Assembly (NCBI GenBank): GCA_001516055.1 | Contig: LOEZ01000030.1 | Location: forward strand, 1 to 60,138 | Direction: 5' to 3' | DNA length: 60,138 bases | From: Gracilibacter sp. BRH_c7a | Lineage (GTDB): Bacteria > Bacillota > Desulfitobacteriia > Desulfitobacteriales > Syntrophobotulaceae | Part shown: piece by piece, positions 53,753-60,138 of the stretch | Layout of the letters: each line of letters starts with the position of its first letter | How positions within the stretch are numbered: the first letter of the stretch is position 1 | Position numbers and translations under genes: made by a program | The notes under the pieces: generated by a model | Database searches by the model: none | Told to the model about the DNA's origin: nothing | The model's input: only the letters and a program-made list of their open reading frames with translations

Positions 53753-54163
53753 ATGTTTAAGGAGTTACCGGAAATAATCGGAGAATCTCCCGCTTTAGGT
53801 TTAGTACTCGCAGGTACGGCTGCTGTAGTATTAGCACCATCAGTGAAAAATGTTCTGAGAGGTGTAGCGGTAGGAGCAGCAAAAGGGGTTCTTTCTCTTG
53901 CCGAAGGAGGGGTAGGTCTTACTTCTCGTATGAAGGATAACTGGGAAGATATTGTAGATGAGGCAAAAAATCAGCGGGGTATAATAAATATGGAATCAGG
54001 AGTAGTTGGCGCAGGAGCTGGAGGAGCTATAGGAGCTACAATCGGAAGTAGCATGGCCGGCCCTGTTGGAGCAGCTGTCGGAGGCGGGGTCGGAGGTGTG
54101 GCTGGTGCCAGTATAGCCAGTAATACTGATAAGAAGGAAGATACTAAGGGACTAAGACCTTAA
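53753..54163 (+). CDS. DUF5132-like plus glycine-zipper fusion protein
   Basis: The 136-residue protein has two modules. Residues about 10-75 contain VKNVLRGVAVGAAKGVLSLA and NWEDIVDEAKNQR, closely matching the small protein at 58023-58298 (GNILRPVAVLGVRGVLEIAA, EMEDIVAEAHFER). Residues about 82-125 are a glycine zipper, GAGAGGAIGATIGSSMAG and GAAVGGGVGGVAGASI. That is the same kind of module as in 57467-57766. So one gene here combines what the ATPase operon encodes separately. It is probably membrane-associated. The ATG follows GAAAGGAGCGATATT. Confidence 0.75.
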   Translation: MFKELPEIIGESPALGLVLAGTAAVVLAPSVKNVLRGVAVGAAKGVLSLAEGGVGLTSRMKDNWEDIVDEAKNQRGIINMESGVVGAGAGGAIGATIGSSMAGPVGAAVGGGVGGVAGASIASNTDKKEDTKGLRP

Positions 54164-54203
54164 TACTATGTTTTACCTTCAAGTCTAAGACTTCTGTTTT
54201 AAA

Positions 54204-54245
54204 AAGGGATTATAGCGATCTACGCTATAGAATCCCTTTTTCATT
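54204..54245. terminator. Terminator between the fusion protein and the P1B-like ATPase
   Basis: AAAGGGATT-TAGCG pairs with CGCTA-AATCCCTTT with a bulge, followed by TTC on the plus strand and by a T-rich tract on the minus strand. It lies between convergent genes. Confidence 0.7.
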
Positions 54246-54284
54246 AATCTCTGTGATATTATTTAAGTAAATACTTATATTTGA

Positions 54285-56372
54285 TCAGATTGACATGGAG
54301 TTAAACAAGACAGTGATGATTCCCATATTTGATAAGAGAGCCGCACCAGTTGGGGTAATAATTCCGGTAGTGCCTAAGCCCAATCCCACGATGTTTTGTG
54401 CTAAGGCGATATTCAGGTTTTCTTCCCCGGTCATTATGGCTTTTTGTAGCAACTTAAAGGTGTCTGCAAGCAAGTCCAGGTTTTCTGAGGCGATAACGAT
54501 CTCCGCTGCCTGGGCAGATGAGTTAATTCCGGTACTTCCTATGCAGATCCCCAGATCTGCTTGAGCCATGGCCGGTGTATCATCAAGTCCATCGCCAACC
54601 ATTGCTACCGAGTATCCTTTATCTTTCCATCTTCTGATCAGGTCTGCCTTATCCTGGGCAGATAGATCGTAATGTACCTCGGTTATTCCGATTTTATCTG
54701 CTATGATTTCAGCTGCTTCCTGAGAGTCGCCTGTCACGATAACAATTCTTTCTATGCCCAGAGCCCTCAATTTTTCTATAGTATCCCGTGCTTTAGGTTT
54801 TAATAATTCGGATACTGCCAGAATTCCGATGATTTTCTTATTCCTGGCTACGAAAATAGGAATCTGTCCAAGATGTCTCAGACGGGGAAGCTTAATCATC
54901 ACCTTTCCCAGGGATACATTATTTGCTGCCATAAAACTCTGGTCACCAATAATAATATCATCAGGCATTTCAGAATTATTATTCTGTTTTATGGTGCTTA
55001 CTGCGGATAGACCGATTTGCGCCTCAAGGGCTTTTCTCTGTATAGCTTCAGGCAAGCCTGGTCTGAGTTCGCCATCTGCAACCGATGCCAAACGTAGTAT
55101 ATCTTCAGATTTAATTTTTTTGTCTATAAGAATTATGTCTTCAATCTCAACTGCATTGAGAGAAAGTGTACCGGTTTTGTCCAGAGCGATAGTATTTATT
55201 TTGGCAGCTGCCGAAAAAATGTTTTCATCTCTGATAAATACTTTTTCTCTGGCTGCATTACCTAAAGCCAGACCTGTGGCTGTAGACAAGGCAAGACCGG
55301 CAGCAGAGGGTATTGCTGCCAGAAGCATGGTAATGCTTCTCAGCTTATTGCCGCTAAACAGATAATATATAGCGGTAAAAATGAGTGAAAACAATGATTG
55401 GGAATTGATACGTTGTTGATGTATTGTATTCTTAGCACTGCGGTTCTTATTTCTAAAGCTCTCTATGAGCCGCCCCTGAAAAGTATTAGAACCGACCTTT
55501 TCAACCAGGATGTAGATTTTTCCCGAAACGACCATCGAACCTGCGTATACTTCACTATTTTCCTCTTTGATTAAATGATCGGGTATACCTGTAATACGGC
55601 TTTCATCTACTTCTGCTCTACCGTGAGATACCTTACCGTCAGCCATGATGATTTCACCGTTTTTGACAACAAGTATCCATTGTTTATCGAGTATGGAAAG
55701 AGGAACTAAGGTCTCTTCCTCTCCCACCAGCACCCTGACTCTTGCTGGCAGTCGATGATGTCTCATGATTTCATAATTTGATTTTGTGAGGTTAACAGTA
55801 CCGACTAACCTGGCGAAACTAACCATCAAACTGATAAAAAGTCCTTCAAAACTCTCTTTTAGGATTAAAAGGAAGAGGCTGACGATATCAGCGAATTTTT
55901 CAAAACCTATTACCGGTGGGAATTTCCAATGATCCAGTTTCTGACTAAAAACAGGATATCCGCTAATTATGGATAGGAAAATTGCGAAATCGACAACACC
56001 TTCGGATGGAGAGGTTTTAGATCTGCCGAAGCACTTAATTTTGATATATATAATAAAGAGAGCAGCACAGATAAGAAGAACATGGACAGTAGGCCATTTT
56101 GTAATCAGATTAGGTGCAATCTTGGGCTCTAAACCATGATGCTGTCTTGTTTCCTCGATTAAGATAATAAGGTCGTTATAGTTAAGGATTTTGTCGTCAT
56201 AATGAATGAGAACTGATCCAGATAAACTATTTATCTTAATACTGATAACTCCAGGGGTTTTTCCTATATTAAAGTAAATAGATTGAGCCATGGGGGAATT
56301 CCTACTGAGACCTGGCACCATAACCCTGATTCTCCCGGGAAGCACATGCAGAAATTTATTTTTTTTCATCAT
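54285..56372 (-). CDS. P1B-like P-type ATPase with HMA-like N terminus and non-canonical motifs
   Basis: The 695-residue protein has an N-terminal HMA-like domain (about residues 8-80, HVLPGRIRVMVPGL) without a CxxC motif. Membrane helices follow, then an actuator domain (about 195-300), helices and an HAD ATPase domain. The phosphorylation motif DKTGT is intact at Asp398, as are TGD (547-549) and a GDGLDDTP motif (593-600). However, the membrane CPC motif is IPS (354-356), the actuator TGE is TGI (261-263), and the N-domain HP is absent. It is either a specialised transporter or a regulatory/inactive pump. The ATG follows GGGAAGGATTACCAAG. Confidence 0.85.
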   Translation of the reverse strand: MMKKNKFLHVLPGRIRVMVPGLSRNSPMAQSIYFNIGKTPGVISIKINSLSGSVLIHYDDKILNYNDLIILIEETRQHHGLEPKIAPNLITKWPTVHVLLICAALFIIYIKIKCFGRSKTSPSEGVVDFAIFLSIISGYPVFSQKLDHWKFPPVIGFEKFADIVSLFLLILKESFEGLFISLMVSFARLVGTVNLTKSNYEIMRHHRLPARVRVLVGEEETLVPLSILDKQWILVVKNGEIIMADGKVSHGRAEVDESRITGIPDHLIKEENSEVYAGSMVVSGKIYILVEKVGSNTFQGRLIESFRNKNRSAKNTIHQQRINSQSLFSLIFTAIYYLFSGNKLRSITMLLAAIPSAAGLALSTATGLALGNAAREKVFIRDENIFSAAAKINTIALDKTGTLSLNAVEIEDIILIDKKIKSEDILRLASVADGELRPGLPEAIQRKALEAQIGLSAVSTIKQNNNSEMPDDIIIGDQSFMAANNVSLGKVMIKLPRLRHLGQIPIFVARNKKIIGILAVSELLKPKARDTIEKLRALGIERIVIVTGDSQEAAEIIADKIGITEVHYDLSAQDKADLIRRWKDKGYSVAMVGDGLDDTPAMAQADLGICIGSTGINSSAQAAEIVIASENLDLLADTFKLLQKAIMTGEENLNIALAQNIVGLGLGTTGIITPTGAALLSNMGIITVLFNSMSI

Positions 56373-56485
56373 CTTGGTAATCCTTCCCTAAAATATGATT
56401 CAAAGCTAATGCTTTAACAGACTGTGGATTAACTTATCTATAGAAAGGATTCCCCAACTATGGAAAGAGCTATGTATCTAAAAAG

Positions 56486-56513
56486 AAAAAACGCCCCTCA
56501 GGACGTTTTTCTG
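56486..56513. terminator. Bidirectional terminator between the two P-type ATPase transcription units
   Basis: AAAAACG and CGTTTTT flank a small CC/GG-closed loop, giving T runs on both strands. It separates the 60138-56523 operon from the P1B-like ATPase gene. Confidence 0.65.
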
Positions 56514-56522
56514 ATACAATTC

Positions 56523-57380
56523 TTATCTTGCACAGATATTCTTCAGTACTTGGTCATCATAACAGTGTTTTTGTTTGATACTTTCAATTTTATCGTTAAG
56601 CCTTTCCTCCACATAAATATCGTGGAGTGAATAGAACGATTTTGCCGCAATAGATTGAAGATCGTTTTGAATATTAAGTTTGAGTGCTAACAAAACCCCT
56701 TCAAGCCTGCGTTCGGTATCAGATATGTGTTCTCGATAGACTTTCGCAGAATCGAACCCAAAGCCTGATAATAAAACAGAACTTAGATTAGAGAACTCGG
56801 CCAAATGATTAAGTATCTTATGTCGTATTATCTGACCAAAGGCAAGTTCCAAAGCGATTTCACTAACAATTCCTGCTCCTTCTGCAACTAACAGATTTCT
56901 TCTTTTCCCAGATAAGCATTCGTCGATAATAGCAAAACTATCTTTAAGCATATATTCTCTGGCTGGTGATACATTTTCAGGAATATGACCAAAACGATCT
57001 TCTAATCTTTCTGTAACTAAATTATTGATGGAAAGAATCAGCTCACTTAATTCAGTATCAGAAATAAAGAACTCATAATCAAAGTGACGGTATTTTTTTA
57101 ATGCTAAAGTTTTAACCAATGGTTTAATTAAACTGAGTTTATCCTTAAAGAAGAAGTCAACCTCAGCTGCTATATTTTGTCGGCATTTTTCTACAGCCTG
57201 AATAGTTTTATATTCTGCAACTTCTTTGTGATGGCAATAGAGATTAATGATATGAGTATATTTGGAATATCTGAAATAATTGTGGCGGAGATTTCTGGAC
57301 TTTGCTCTTCTTTTATAAAAGTCCAGATATATAACTCTATTTAATTTAACCGGGTTTTTAATTCGGTGATATACAGTCAT
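56523..57380 (-). CDS. Hypothetical protein, last gene of the P-type ATPase operon
   Basis: The 285-residue protein starts at ATG 57380, behind TAGGAGAGAAA; a TTG at 57404 is less likely. It is basic and mostly helical by eye, has no clear membrane segment and no family I recognise. Notable stretches are VYHRIKNPVKLNRVIYLDFY, a mid-region RHFDYEFFISDTELSELI and VSEIALELAFGQIIRHKIL. It lies 86 bases after the glycine-zipper gene and is followed by a terminator, so it appears co-transcribed with the ATPase. Function unknown. Confidence 0.7.
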   Translation of the reverse strand: MTVYHRIKNPVKLNRVIYLDFYKRRAKSRNLRHNYFRYSKYTHIINLYCHHKEVAEYKTIQAVEKCRQNIAAEVDFFFKDKLSLIKPLVKTLALKKYRHFDYEFFISDTELSELILSINNLVTERLEDRFGHIPENVSPAREYMLKDSFAIIDECLSGKRRNLLVAEGAGIVSEIALELAFGQIIRHKILNHLAEFSNLSSVLLSGFGFDSAKVYREHISDTERRLEGVLLALKLNIQNDLQSIAAKSFYSLHDIYVEERLNDKIESIKQKHCYDDQVLKNICAR

Positions 57381-57466
57381 TTTCTCTCCTAATTCCTTCT
57401 TCAATATTACGATATTATTATAAAAGAAAAGTATTAGGAGAGGTTTACTGTTATGTTAATTTTATG

Positions 57467-57766
57467 TTAATTTTTTAGGAATAATGAATTACCGACTTCC
57501 AAGCCGATAGAGTTTCCCAGACGGCTGCCAACTATAGCACCCAGGATTGAACCTATCGCAGTTCCGATTCCTGGCAAGACGGCAGAACCTACGCCGGCAC
57601 CATATTCTAATCCTGTCATTAACCCTAAGGCACTGGTTATATTTTTGGTTGTTCTGGCTGCTAGACCATTATCTGAGATACTCCCAGCGGCATAGGTTTT
57701 AATATCATGTACTTGTGACAATCCTCCGGATATCAAACCGGCAAATAATTGACCTCTGCTGAACAT
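57467..57766 (-). CDS. Small glycine-zipper membrane protein
   Basis: The 99-residue protein has a C-terminal glycine zipper (GVGSAVLPGIGTAIGSILGA, IVGSRLGNSIGLEVG). This suggests helix packing or oligomerisation in a membrane. The N terminus (RGQLFAGLISGGLSQVHDI) is also mildly hydrophobic. The ATG follows CAGGGAGTGATACC. The same zipper module is fused to a DUF5132-like domain in 53753-54163. It is the third gene after the ATPase in the operon. Confidence 0.7.
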   Translation of the reverse strand: MFSRGQLFAGLISGGLSQVHDIKTYAAGSISDNGLAARTTKNITSALGLMTGLEYGAGVGSAVLPGIGTAIGSILGAIVGSRLGNSIGLEVGNSLFLKN

Positions 57767-57802
57767 GGTATCACTCCCTGGATTTTTTTGTTAAATAATA
57801 AT

Positions 57803-58033
57803 TCAATTGAAGATTCGGCGAATGTTTATCCATTTAAAGAAATTGATCCCTTTTTCTTTACCCTTTATGCGTACGTAGTATAAGAACTGGCTGATGAATG
57901 TTTCCCATCTTTGACCGATTTGTTGAGCAGAAACTTCGTTGGATAAAACACTTTCGATGCTTTGATCGATAGCTTTTTCTATGTGTATCAGAGCCTCTTG
58001 AAAATGGAAATCAAGGGATTTTTTATTCTCCAC
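57803..58033 (-). CDS. Small hypothetical protein in the P-type ATPase operon
   Basis: I tentatively start at GTG 58033 (76 residues), which overlaps the upstream stop by 11 bases and can be translationally coupled. An ATG at 58075 would overlap by 53 bases and lacks a ribosome binding site. The protein is soluble and helical (EALIHIEKAIDQSIESVLSN, QIGQRWETFISQFLYYVR) with a basic C terminus. No family recognised. Confidence 0.5.
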   Translation of the reverse strand: MENKKSLDFHFQEALIHIEKAIDQSIESVLSNEVSAQQIGQRWETFISQFLYYVRIKGKEKGINFFKWINIRRIFN

Positions 58034-58298
58034 AGGTCGTTTGTTCACTCCTTGTACTATTACTTTCGATTTCATCGTCCATCTTTTTTCTCAGACGTTC
58101 AAAATGAGCTTCCGCAACAATGTCCTCCATTTCTTCTCTAGCCAATTGCAGGGCAGTTTTAGTCAGAGCTGCAATTTCCAGAACACCTCGGACACCCAGG
58201 ACTGCCACGGGACGAAGAATATTTCCTAGTGCAGGAGGAAGGATAGAGGGTCTTAAAGCAGGATCCCGGTTTTCATTTGATTTTTGATCTTCAATCAC
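58023..58298 (-). CDS. DUF5132-like small protein adjacent to the P-type ATPase
   Basis: The 91-residue protein starts at GTG 58298, 15 bases after the ATPase stop and 10 after AGAGGAG. Residues about 24-70 (GNILRPVAVLGVRGVLEIAA, then EMEDIVAEAHFER) match the first module of the fusion protein at 53753-54163. A moderately hydrophobic stretch is followed by an acidic EDIV motif and a charged tail ending in CGE. In layout it recalls small membrane partners of mycobacterial P-type pumps (PacL with CtpC), but I see no sequence match to them. Confidence 0.72.
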   Translation of the reverse strand: MIEDQKSNENRDPALRPSILPPALGNILRPVAVLGVRGVLEIAALTKTALQLAREEMEDIVAEAHFERLRKKMDDEIESNSTRSEQTTCGE

Positions 58299-58313
58299 GT
58301 CTTATCAACTCCT

Positions 58314-60138
58314 CTAGGAGGCTGTTCCATATAGAGGTAAGGATTTTGGACCTGGTACATAAGAATGTTCATTAACTCTGGTAAACAGAGGTACAAACAG
58401 TTTTGATATTGCAGAAACTGAAGCGGTGGTCAAGAAAATAGACAGCCAATACTTGAAATTTATTGGGGCTGTATGGAAGAAGCGGGCAAAGGGTGGGACA
58501 TAGATCGCAGCTAACAGGGCGAGGAAAGAGAATCCGATACCACCTATAAGATATCTGTCTTGAAGTGAATGAACAATTCCTTCCTGTGACCCTTCTTTTC
58601 TCCAGGATAGAGTCTGCACAAACTGCCCAACAACTAAAGAGACAAAAGCTGCTGTTTGGGCTACAGCAAGGGGTGCTCCACTGGAAAGTGCTACTCCGAA
58701 GATTCCAAGGGAAGTGGAGGCTAGGATAGATCCACGTGTAATCACCTTGCTATAGAGTTCACGGTCGACCACATCTTTGGTCAGAGAAGTTTGAGATTCA
58801 TTATTCTGGTTCCCTGGATTAACCGCCAGAATCATGGCAGGGATGGCATCGGTTAACAGATTCATTAGCAGAATCTGAATGGGAACCAGAGGCATTGGAA
58901 GTCCGGCGAGTACTGCTGTCGCAGTAACCATGATCTCTGCCAGATTGCCTGTAAGCAGACAACCAATAGCTTTCCTTATATTGCCAATAATTATGCGTCC
59001 TTGTGTGATACCTTCCAAGATAGAACCGAAATGGTCTTTCTTAAGGACCATATCGGCGGCAGCTTTTGTGACTTCCGTACCTGTCCCCATCGAAATGCCT
59101 ATGTTAGCCTGTTTGATTGCAGGAGTATCATTTACCCCGTCGCCAGTCATGGCAACGATTTGACCGTGGGCCTGGAAAGCTTTGACGATTCTGAGTTTAT
59201 GCTCCGGTGTCACCCTGGCGAAAATGTTTATTTCTTCTACCAGTTCAGCCAGTTCCTGATCTGTTAAGCGATCCAATTCTTGTCCTGTCATTACTTTGGA
59301 ATTTCCATTACTGATTCCAAGCTCTTTTGCTATGGAGATCGCTGTTACAGGATGGTCACCGGTAATCATCACCGGTTTAACACCGAGTGCATAAGCTTCT
59401 GTGATACTGGCTTGGATATCGGGTTTTGGTGGATCCATCATTCCGGCCAAACCAACATATATCATTTCTTTTGGAATCTGTCCGGGGTTTTCATTAACCC
59501 ATTCGATAGGTGCATAAGCAAATCCTAAAACACGAAGGGCTTCGCGTGCATATGATATATTTTGTTCGAAGATCTTATCTTTCATCTTCGGGGTCAAAGG
59601 TAAGACTTCTCCCTTTTGCTGATAAAACTTGCAGTGTTCCAAGACCACCTCAACAGATCCTTTGCAAAACACATAGCAATCTTTATCTTCCTTTGTATCC
59701 CGACAGACAACACTCATACTTCCTGAGTTGGAGTCGAAAGGTACTTCATGGACTCGGTGCCAGTGTTTGGCTTGATCCTGTAATGTACCCAGTTTAGCAG
59801 CTAAAGTCAAAAGTGCGCCTTCGGTAGGGTCACCTATAACATGCCATTGATCTTCTTTTTTCTCCAATTTACTGTTGTTACAAAGTAAACTGATGCGGGC
59901 TATATATTCAAGTTCAGGGTTAGAATCTTTGAGTGGAGAATCATGATCAGCTATATTCACACACTCAATGGAACCAACCGGTTCATAGCCACTGCCTGAG
60001 ACTTCCCATAAGCCACCCATTGTTGCTACTGTTTTGACGGTCATTTCATTTTTGGTCAGCGTCCCGGTTTTATCGGTACAGATAACAGTGGCTCTACCTA
60101 AGGTCTCTAAAGCCGATAACTTCCTGATGAGGGCATTT
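58314..60138 (-). CDS. P2-type cation-transporting ATPase (partial, N terminus beyond the window)
   Basis: The frame stays open to the window edge. The first visible residues read NALIRKLSALETLGRATVIC followed directly by DKTGTLTKNEMTV, so an internal ATG at 60044 is not the start. The visible 607 residues include the N domain (HVIGDPTEGALL, CKGSVEVVLEHC), PVMITGDHPVTAISIAKELG and TGDGVNDTPAIKQANIGISMG. M5-M10 contain NLLTDAIPAMILAVNPG, where Asn and Asp match cation ligands of the P2A Ca2+ pumps. It is probably a Ca2+ or Mn2+ exporter. It heads a five-gene operon with small membrane proteins. Confidence 0.9.
   Translation of the reverse strand, partial: NALIRKLSALETLGRATVICTDKTGTLTKNEMTVKTVATMGGLWEVSGSGYEPVGSIECVNIADHDSPLKDSNPELEYIARISLLCNNSKLEKKEDQWHVIGDPTEGALLTLAAKLGTLQDQAKHWHRVHEVPFDSNSGSMSVVCRDTKEDKDCYVFCKGSVEVVLEHCKFYQQKGEVLPLTPKMKDKIFEQNISYAREALRVLGFAYAPIEWVNENPGQIPKEMIYVGLAGMMDPPKPDIQASITEAYALGVKPVMITGDHPVTAISIAKELGISNGNSKVMTGQELDRLTDQELAELVEEINIFARVTPEHKLRIVKAFQAHGQIVAMTGDGVNDTPAIKQANIGISMGTGTEVTKAAADMVLKKDHFGSILEGITQGRIIIGNIRKAIGCLLTGNLAEIMVTATAVLAGLPMPLVPIQILLMNLLTDAIPAMILAVNPGNQNNESQTSLTKDVVDRELYSKVITRGSILASTSLGIFGVALSSGAPLAVAQTAAFVSLVVGQFVQTLSWRKEGSQEGIVHSLQDRYLIGGIGFSFLALLAAIYVPPFARFFHTAPINFKYWLSIFLTTASVSAISKLFVPLFTRVNEHSYVPGPKSLPLYGTAS

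Follow-up and report, generated by a model that had tools for sequence, protein, structure and literature searches.

DUF5132 proteins distantly related to PacL-like proteins are encoded with a giant P-type ATPase and a probable pseudo-ATPase in Desulfitobacteriales

Gene content of the locus

The stretch of DNA analyzed (the window; 60,138 nucleotides) is the whole of contig LOEZ01000030.1 of the Gracilibacter sp. BRH_c7a assembly (GCA_001516055.1). At one end it carries the 3' part of a P2-type ATPase gene followed by genes for a DUF5132-like protein, a small helical protein, a glycine-zipper protein, a protein of unknown family, and a P1B-like ATPase, with a convergent gene that fuses a DUF5132-like domain to a glycine zipper (Table 1). 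The initial annotation had described this arrangement, and its observation was confirmed, as all of the genes are present. Two qualifications are required. The P2-type ATPase gene runs off the end of the contig, and only one of the two modules said to occur in both fused and split forms could be shown to do so.

Table 1. Features of the locus, with Pfam matches (coordinates in parentheses) and other sequence evidence
Position	Strand	Feature	Evidence
58314..60138	-	3' part (607 aa) of a P2-type ATPase, cut by the contig end; almost certainly the C-half of a ~1570-aa giant ATPase	Cation_ATPase_C (58317-60137); DKTGT, GDGVND, and M5 NLAE / M6 NLLTD ligand motifs present
58023..58298	-	DUF5132-like protein, 91 aa	PF17195 at 20.6 bits (58026-58298), below the 25-bit cut-off; GTG start with Shine-Dalgarno-like AGAGGAG upstream; 34-44% identity to most of nine aligned homologues, 25% to the most distant
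57803..58075	-	Small soluble helical protein; likely real start the GTG at 58033, giving ~76 aa like its homologues	No hydrophobic segment; codon check; AAGGAG site
57467..57766	-	Glycine-zipper protein, 99 aa	Gly-zipper_Omp (PF13488) at 23.3 bits (57470-57766), just below cut-off
56523..57404	-	Helical protein of unknown family, 293 aa from TTG or 285 aa from the ATG at 57380	AGGAGAG site upstream of the ATG; no Pfam or NCBIfam hit
56486..56511	-	Terminator-like hairpin (11 pairs, T-rich tail) between the unknown and the P1B-like gene	Consensus match only
54285..56372	-	P1B-derived probable pseudo-ATPase, 695 aa	HMA_2 (without CxxC), E1-E2_ATPase, and HAD (54288-56372); TGE->TGI, CPC->IPS, HN->SN, GDGxND->GDGLDD; DKTGT and TGD kept
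54210..54230	both	Terminator-like hairpin between the convergent pseudo-P1B and fusion genes	Consensus match only
53753..54163	+	Fusion of a second DUF5132-like domain (about residues 1-82) with a C-terminal glycine zipper (about residues 85-129)	Gly-zipper_Omp (PF13488) at 33.6 bits (53753-54160), over cut-off; fusion conserved in six other genomes

Although the DUF5132 protein of the window scores below Pfam's cut-off, 43 of 48 homologues hit the same model at E<=1, with a best E value of 1.4e-8. The Pfam model was too narrow to serve as a survey tool, matching 5 of 398 genomes of the phylum, none over cut-off. The predicted structure (AlphaFold) of the protein of unknown family is all-helical at low confidence (pLDDT 70); no PDB entry matched it below E 0.001 (best match, E 0.07), and the fold could not be interpreted.

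Association of DUF5132 proteins with P-type ATPases

The initial annotation had named in advance two findings that would count against it: a lack of genomic association between the small proteins and P-type ATPases, and a lack of similarity between the fusion halves and the separate proteins. The association is clear. The same locus, with the same gene order, recurs in at least eight other genomes of the order. In an independent scan for loci found only by DUF5132 similarity, 71 of 72 loci carried a P-type ATPase, at a median distance of 46 bp and within 500 bp in 60 of them, across Bacilli, Clostridia, and Desulfitobacteriales. For comparison, the genome of the window has 7 E1-E2 domains in 4.1 Mb. 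Co-location by chance was therefore rejected. Homologues of the small helical protein were present in 59 of the 72 loci, the glycine-zipper family in 44, and divergent homologues of the protein of unknown family lay beside DUF5132 in nine loci. Most loci have two DUF5132-like proteins. Within the order, all 7 genomes that hold the N-terminal half of the giant ATPase described below also hold a DUF5132 gene, compared with 4 of the other 67 (Fisher p 1.8e-7). The distribution is patchy, however, in that none of the 24 other genomes of the window's family had a match. A search for plasmid-borne copies gave no DUF5132 hit, and no record covered 80% of the giant.

The comparison of fused and separate modules gave a divided result. 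The N-half of the fusion matched the DUF5132 alignment (hhalign prob 95.7, E 9.8e-9), whereas its glycine-zipper half did not specifically match the separate zipper protein (prob 4.5, or 5.0 when 44 zipper sequences were used). Homology of the two zippers is not supported; both are only generic Gly-zipper_Omp sequences.

Relationship of DUF5132 to PacL-like families

The initial annotation noted that the layout recalls the PacL proteins of mycobacterial metal pumps but considered the sequences to look unrelated. This was contradicted by profile comparisons. The DUF5132 profile aligned colinearly with DUF6110, the PacL-like family, over the whole protein (hhalign prob 94.5, E 7.4e-8, score 47 over 98 columns). 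In contrast, 200 column shuffles scored at most 21, the reversed profile scored 14, and a YtxH control scored 15, ruling out generic membrane-helix similarity as the cause of the match. In addition, 5 of 48 members hit DUF1490 (PacL) itself at E<=1 (best 4.2e-4) and one hit DUF6110 (3e-4), but the DUF1490 hits were weak and scattered and the window copy did not hit DUF1490.

A 19-residue segment with hydropathy >=1.6 was found in 48 of 61 homologues, together with a conserved AREExEDIVAEAQFER helix. In the window copy the N-terminal hydrophobic segment is shifted and interrupted by arginines. The C-terminal metal-binding motif of PacL is absent in nearly all members: only one of the DUF5132-like proteins scoring over 40 bits has a His-containing tail. 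P1B pumps at four of the DUF5132 loci (survey loci L032, L094, L098, and L093) keep CPC plus the HN motif of TM6, the signature of CtpC, the client of PacL1 (PMC9374683). The P1B-like partner in the window has IPS and SN instead.

A giant ATPase and a probable pseudo-pump

The initial annotation identified the truncated gene simply as a P2-type ATPase. It is almost certainly the 3' end of a giant of 1520-1690 aa, because the window protein is 65-67% identical to the C-half of Desulfosporosinus giants but only 39-41% identical to ordinary or short P2 pumps. In relatives, which are 1521-1686 aa, the N-half of the giant is a degenerate P1B ATPase that has neither an A domain nor DKTGT, fused to an intact P2 pump with calcium-type ligands. 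This N-half aligned with the P1B-like partner (prob 100, E 3e-47), and its AlphaFold model matched ZntA (4umw) at E 3.9e-15. All 43 long giants have one DKTGT, one PEGL, and one GDGxND in the C-half. In the window gene the M4 PEGL would lie beyond the contig end. The N-half of the window's own giant was not found elsewhere in the assembly.

The neighboring gene, annotated initially as an atypical P1B-like ATPase, is probably a pseudo-pump because the catalytic glutamate and metal-site residues are gone. The TGE glutamate of the A domain was lost in all 20 proteins of the partner lineage, the window included, being replaced by TGQ, SGQ, TGI, SGI, or SGK. In Clostridia the change is Glu to Gln. 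The same change in KdpB, E161Q, blocks aspartyl-phosphate hydrolysis (PMC7535926). In four Desulfosporosinus copies DKTGT itself has become DKIPSL/DKVPSL and TGD has become T[KR]D.

A possible PacL-type platform

The interpretation in the initial annotation, that the two modules act together, probably as membrane partners or scaffolds of the pumps, was supported only in part. The best explanation, held with moderate confidence, is that the locus encodes a multicomponent P-type ATPase module that works like the mycobacterial PacL/Ctp efflux platform, with one working P2 pump and one or two pseudo-P1B modules. The sequences themselves establish the remote kinship of DUF5132 with DUF6110, the near-universal proximity to P-type ATPases, the two-part construction of the giant in relatives, and the loss from the separate P1B-like protein of the residues for metal binding and dephosphorylation. 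Everything concerning function is inferred from sequence alone. In this view the P2 half is the only working pump and would export a divalent cation, most likely Ca2+ or a similar ion, because M4 PEGL (in relatives), M5 NLAE, and M6 NLLTD match the calcium ligands. The P1B-derived halves would act as nonpumping docking or regulatory subunits. The DUF5132 proteins would sit in the membrane by their N-terminal helix, bind the P1B-type membrane domain, and cluster and stabilize the complex, while the glycine-zipper parts, fused or separate, would help by oligomerizing in the membrane. The helical protein and the protein of unknown family would be accessory cytoplasmic parts. However, clostridial P2 partners (965-1060 aa) lack the long P1B half, so docking through that half cannot be general.

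A more speculative possibility, which can only be put forward tentatively, is that the platform is built around a natural pair of a live P2 pump and P1B-derived pseudo-pumps, one fused to the live pump and the other separate and carrying conserved substitutions at the dephosphorylation glutamate. Held in a fixed (E2P-like or nucleotide-bound) state, the separate protein would gate or scaffold the live pump. This would be a regulatory pseudoenzyme class within the P-type ATPases. A literature search found no paper on pseudoenzymes of this superfamily for the terms tried.

Alternative explanations appear less likely. One is that the separate P1B-like protein is still an active transporter with unusual chemistry, in which another residue does the work of the TGE glutamate and a non-cysteine site binds the ion, so that the locus holds two working pumps with their own DUF5132 partners. 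The window copy does keep DKTGT, TGD, and GDG, and in several loci two DUF5132 genes sit beside two ATPases. However, this is considered unlikely in view of the lineage-wide loss of the TGE glutamate, the degeneration of DKTGT and TGD in four Desulfosporosinus copies, the loss of CPC and HN, and the KdpB precedent. Equally unlikely is the possibility that DUF5132, the helical protein, and the zipper protein do not act on the pump but are an envelope or acid/metal-stress cassette that travels with the ATPase genes. The patchy distribution is consistent with this, and several carriers have names that point to acidic or peat habitats, but the very tight spacing across Bacilli, Clostridia, and Desulfitobacteriales, the PacL-family kinship, and the association with two different ATPase types speak for a direct partnership. 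A sporulation-linked calcium pump, in which the giant P2 ATPase would feed Ca2+ transport during spore formation and be localized by the small proteins to the engulfing membrane, is the least likely reading: although most carriers belong to spore-forming lineages of Bacillota and the P2 half has calcium-type ligands, a Chloroflexi locus (L098) also carries DUF5132 with a P1B pump, and the similarly built CtpH/CtpI pumps are in Mycobacterium (PMC3573892).

Comparison with known systems

No paper in the library searched mentions DUF5132. The results link this unstudied small-protein family to the PacL platform proteins, extend PacL-type partners from P1B pumps to the giant P2 class, and point to a family of P-type pseudo-ATPases. 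The function of the giant class is an open question, as CtpH and CtpI are described as uncharacterized and as possibly forming a unique family (PMC10654040). The module gives a way to find out what this little-studied class does, and because it occurs in cultivable Paenibacillus and Brevibacillus, the question can be tested outside mycobacteria.

CtpH/CtpI of M. tuberculosis (FUPA24 family, TC 3.A.3.24; PMC3573892, PMC10654040) resemble the giant in being unusually large P-type ATPases with a ten-helix P2 pump in the C-terminal half (per PMC3573892). No DUF5132 partner of CtpH/CtpI is described in these papers, and a literature search for Rv0424c gave nothing useful.

PacL1/2/3 (DUF1490), which accompany CtpC/CtpG/CtpV in Mycobacterium tuberculosis (PMC9374683, PMC13043812), are small proteins with an N-terminal membrane helix and a Glu/Ala-rich amphipathic helix, a layout that most DUF5132 homologues appear to share but that is less clear in the window copy. 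They are likewise encoded beside a P-type ATPase, and some DUF5132-linked pumps are of the same CPC+HN P1B6-like type as CtpC. The DUF5132 systems differ in lacking the C-terminal metal-binding motif, in having a giant P2-type ATPase as the main client, in the extra zipper, helical, and unknown partners and a pseudo-P1B, and in having two DUF5132-type genes per locus in most cases. The DUF6110 PacL-like proteins linked to P1B6 ATPases, mainly in Firmicutes (PMC9374683), share profile-level homology with DUF5132 and also lack the metal-binding motif. However, their clients and gene neighborhoods differ, and DUF5132 has its own EDI[IV]AEAQFER signature and can be fused to a glycine zipper or carry a coiled-coil tail. 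The separate partner and the N-half of the giant share fold and domain order with the Zn/Cd/Cu P1B ATPases (ZntA, CopA, CadA), but the partner lacks the TGE glutamate and the CPC cysteines and has an HMA_2 domain without CxxC, and the N-half of the giant has no A domain and no DKTGT.

Organization of the locus

The locus lies at the right end of the window, which is the whole of one contig of a 4.1-Mb, 98-contig genome whose order includes Desulfosporosinus and Acididesulfobacillus. Most of the genes read leftwards on the minus strand, with a convergent fusion gene on the plus strand. Gaps between genes are short, and most genes have a Shine-Dalgarno-like site. The small helical protein probably starts at the GTG at 58033, which matches the length of its homologues. 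The observation in the initial annotation held: the locus is real and conserved, and it is of more interest than was described.

Features of the locus (53753-60138), in the order read on the minus strand, and of related DUF5132 loci (designations beginning with L)
Sequence	Position	Strand	Length	Feature
Window	58314-60138	minus		P2-type ATPase, cut by the contig end
Window		minus	91 aa	DUF5132-like protein
Window		minus		Small helical protein
Window		minus	99 aa	Glycine-zipper protein
Window		minus	285 or 293 aa	Unknown
Window	56511-56486	minus		Terminator-like hairpin
Window		minus	695 aa	P1B-like ATPase
Window		both		Hairpin between the convergent genes
Window	53753-54163	plus	136 aa	DUF5132/glycine-zipper fusion
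L074	5214-9894			Giant ATPase gene broken into two frames, Paenibacillus terrae PIC167
L078	5178-9883			Giant ATPase gene broken into two frames, Paenibacillus sp. P25
L093	10305-12476			P1B-like pump with altered TM4 and TM6
L111	10306-12483			P1B-like pump with altered TM4 and TM6

Conservation of the locus

A search with the DUF5132 protein over the 74 genomes of the order found 11 with a match, including the window's own genome. The loci that were long enough to judge had the same kinds of genes, mostly in the same order. None of the 24 other genomes of the window's own family had a DUF5132 match, and the module looks patchily inherited or acquired. In a separate scan of one genome per species with the DUF5132 alignment alone, 72 loci were found in Paenibacillus, Cohnella, Brevibacillus, Desulfosporosinus, Clostridium, and others. 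Of these, 71 carried a P-type ATPase in the DNA retrieved, 60 of them within 500 bp, with a median distance of 46 bp. The helical protein was found in 59 loci, the zipper protein in 44, and the unknown in 9. The converse also held within the order: all 7 genomes with the N-half of the giant ATPase had a DUF5132 gene, compared with 4 of the other 67. Two of those 4, the window's own genome and another genome of the order (G028), have the ATPase cut at a contig edge.

Weak homologues of the 293-aa unknown (205 to 247 aa) lie just upstream of the DUF5132 gene in Clostridia (loci L094, L095, L097, L102, and L108), in some loci on the opposite strand, so this orphan family is also part of the module. 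In six clostridial loci (L097, L099, L101, L103, L104, and L109) the DUF5132 gene is directly followed by a gene for a protein of 374 to 452 aa with an N-terminal match to the HMA_2 region. Several Desulfitobacteriales carriers (L046, L051, L048, and L054) have names that suggest acidic or peat habitats (Acididesulfobacillus, CEB3, and palsa and peat MAGs), and a link to acid or metal exposure is possible.

Two DUF5132-like genes

The N-half of the fusion matched the DUF5132 alignment (probability 95.7, E 9.8e-9), but its zipper half did not specifically match the separate zipper protein. Most loci hold two DUF5132-like genes. In many Bacillales the second one (54 to 148 aa) lies just upstream of the zipper gene, on the opposite strand from the giant. 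In Clostridia it carries a C-terminal coiled-coil-like tail, and in Desulfitobacteriales it is fused to a glycine zipper. Thus, the pairing of a DUF5132 domain with a zipper is seen as neighbours in one group and as a fusion in another, even though the two zippers cannot be shown to be homologous.

The giant ATPase

In relatives the P2 gene is 1521 to 1686 codons long. All 43 long giants have a single DKTGT, a single PEGL, and a single GDGxND, all in the C-half. The N-half (36 sequences) aligned end to end with the P1B-like partner (probability 100, E 3e-47) and with ordinary P1B pumps (E 1.3e-19), with the A domain deleted. Its predicted structure (mean pLDDT 80) matched ZntA (4umw) at E 3.9e-15, as well as other P1B pumps. 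In the alignment rows inspected, most sequences read EDT or EDS at the phosphorylation site instead of DKTGT, and NPR at TM4 instead of CPC.

The P2 part in the window was 65 to 67% identical to the C-half of Desulfosporosinus giants, compared with 39 to 41% for a short clostridial P2 and the ordinary P2 pump of the same genome. Therefore, it is very probably the end of such a giant, although its missing part was not found in the assembly. The same giant gene is split between contigs in two other draft genomes of the order (G012 and G042), so that a short P2 annotation here would be an assembly effect. The giant genes broken into two frames in the two Paenibacillus strains reflect frameshifts or sequencing errors.

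The putative pseudo-P1B ATPase

In the alignment of P1B-type proteins from all loci, 20 proteins, including that of the window, have lost the TGE glutamate, which is replaced to give TGI, SGI, or SGK in Desulfitobacteriales and TGQ or SGQ in Clostridia. The TM4 CPC pair and the HN motif are also replaced. Four Desulfosporosinus copies have lost DKTGT and TGD as well, but the window copy keeps both. In KdpB the change of this glutamate to glutamine leaves phosphoenzyme formation intact but blocks its hydrolysis (PMC7535926). These proteins therefore look like P-type pseudo-ATPases, and it is possible that some of them can be phosphorylated once. A literature search on pseudoenzymes of this superfamily found no paper with the terms tried. 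The P1B-like pumps of L093 and L111 that are listed in the table represent a further unusual class at DUF5132 loci, with intact TGES and DKTGT but an altered TM4 (CPKP, CPGP) and a KD in place of HN in TM6.

Proposed function of the module

These results suggest a model in which one catalytic P2 pump, with calcium-type ligands (NLAE in M5 and NLLTD in M6, with PEGL in relatives), is surrounded by P1B-derived non-pumping modules and PacL-like DUF5132 membrane proteins that cluster and stabilize it, with glycine-zipper proteins helping membrane assembly. Only the gene content, the kinship, and the motif losses come directly from the sequences, and confidence in these is high. How the module works is inferred from them. 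Confidence in a PacL-like scaffold role is moderate. Confidence is low for the transported ion and for the pseudo-pump's task, which might be that of a scaffold, an ion sensor, or a brake.

Comparison with CtpH/CtpI and PacL

The architecture of the giant ATPase fits the description of CtpH/CtpI (FUPA24; PMC3573892), the function of which is listed as open in a 2023 review (PMC10654040).

To evaluate kinship with PacL, DUF6110 proteins were retrieved from relatives. A profile of 61 DUF5132-like proteins aligned colinearly with them over 98 columns (probability 94.5, E 7.4e-8, score 47), whereas 200 column shuffles scored at most 21, the reversed profile 14, and YtxH, another small membrane-helix family, 15. 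In a Pfam scan of 48 DUF5132-like proteins, 5 hit DUF1490 (best 4e-4) and one hit DUF6110. The interpretation in the initial annotation was only partly supported: a PacL-like arrangement remains the favored reading, but the remark that the sequences look unrelated to PacL does not hold at the profile level. However, the metal-binding tail of PacL is missing. DUF6110 proteins are stated to be related to DUF1490 and to go with P1B6 ATPases, and CtpC, the client of PacL1, is stated to be P1B6-like, with an HN motif in TM6 and a CPC motif in TM4 (Boudehen et al., PMC9374683). Four P1B pumps linked to DUF5132 (at loci L032, L094, L098, and L093) have exactly CPC plus HN. We regard the locus as a previously unrecognized form of the PacL-type pump platform, in which the PacL-like proteins lack the metal-binding tail and, in the proposed model, would accompany a P2 pump and P1B-derived non-pumping modules.
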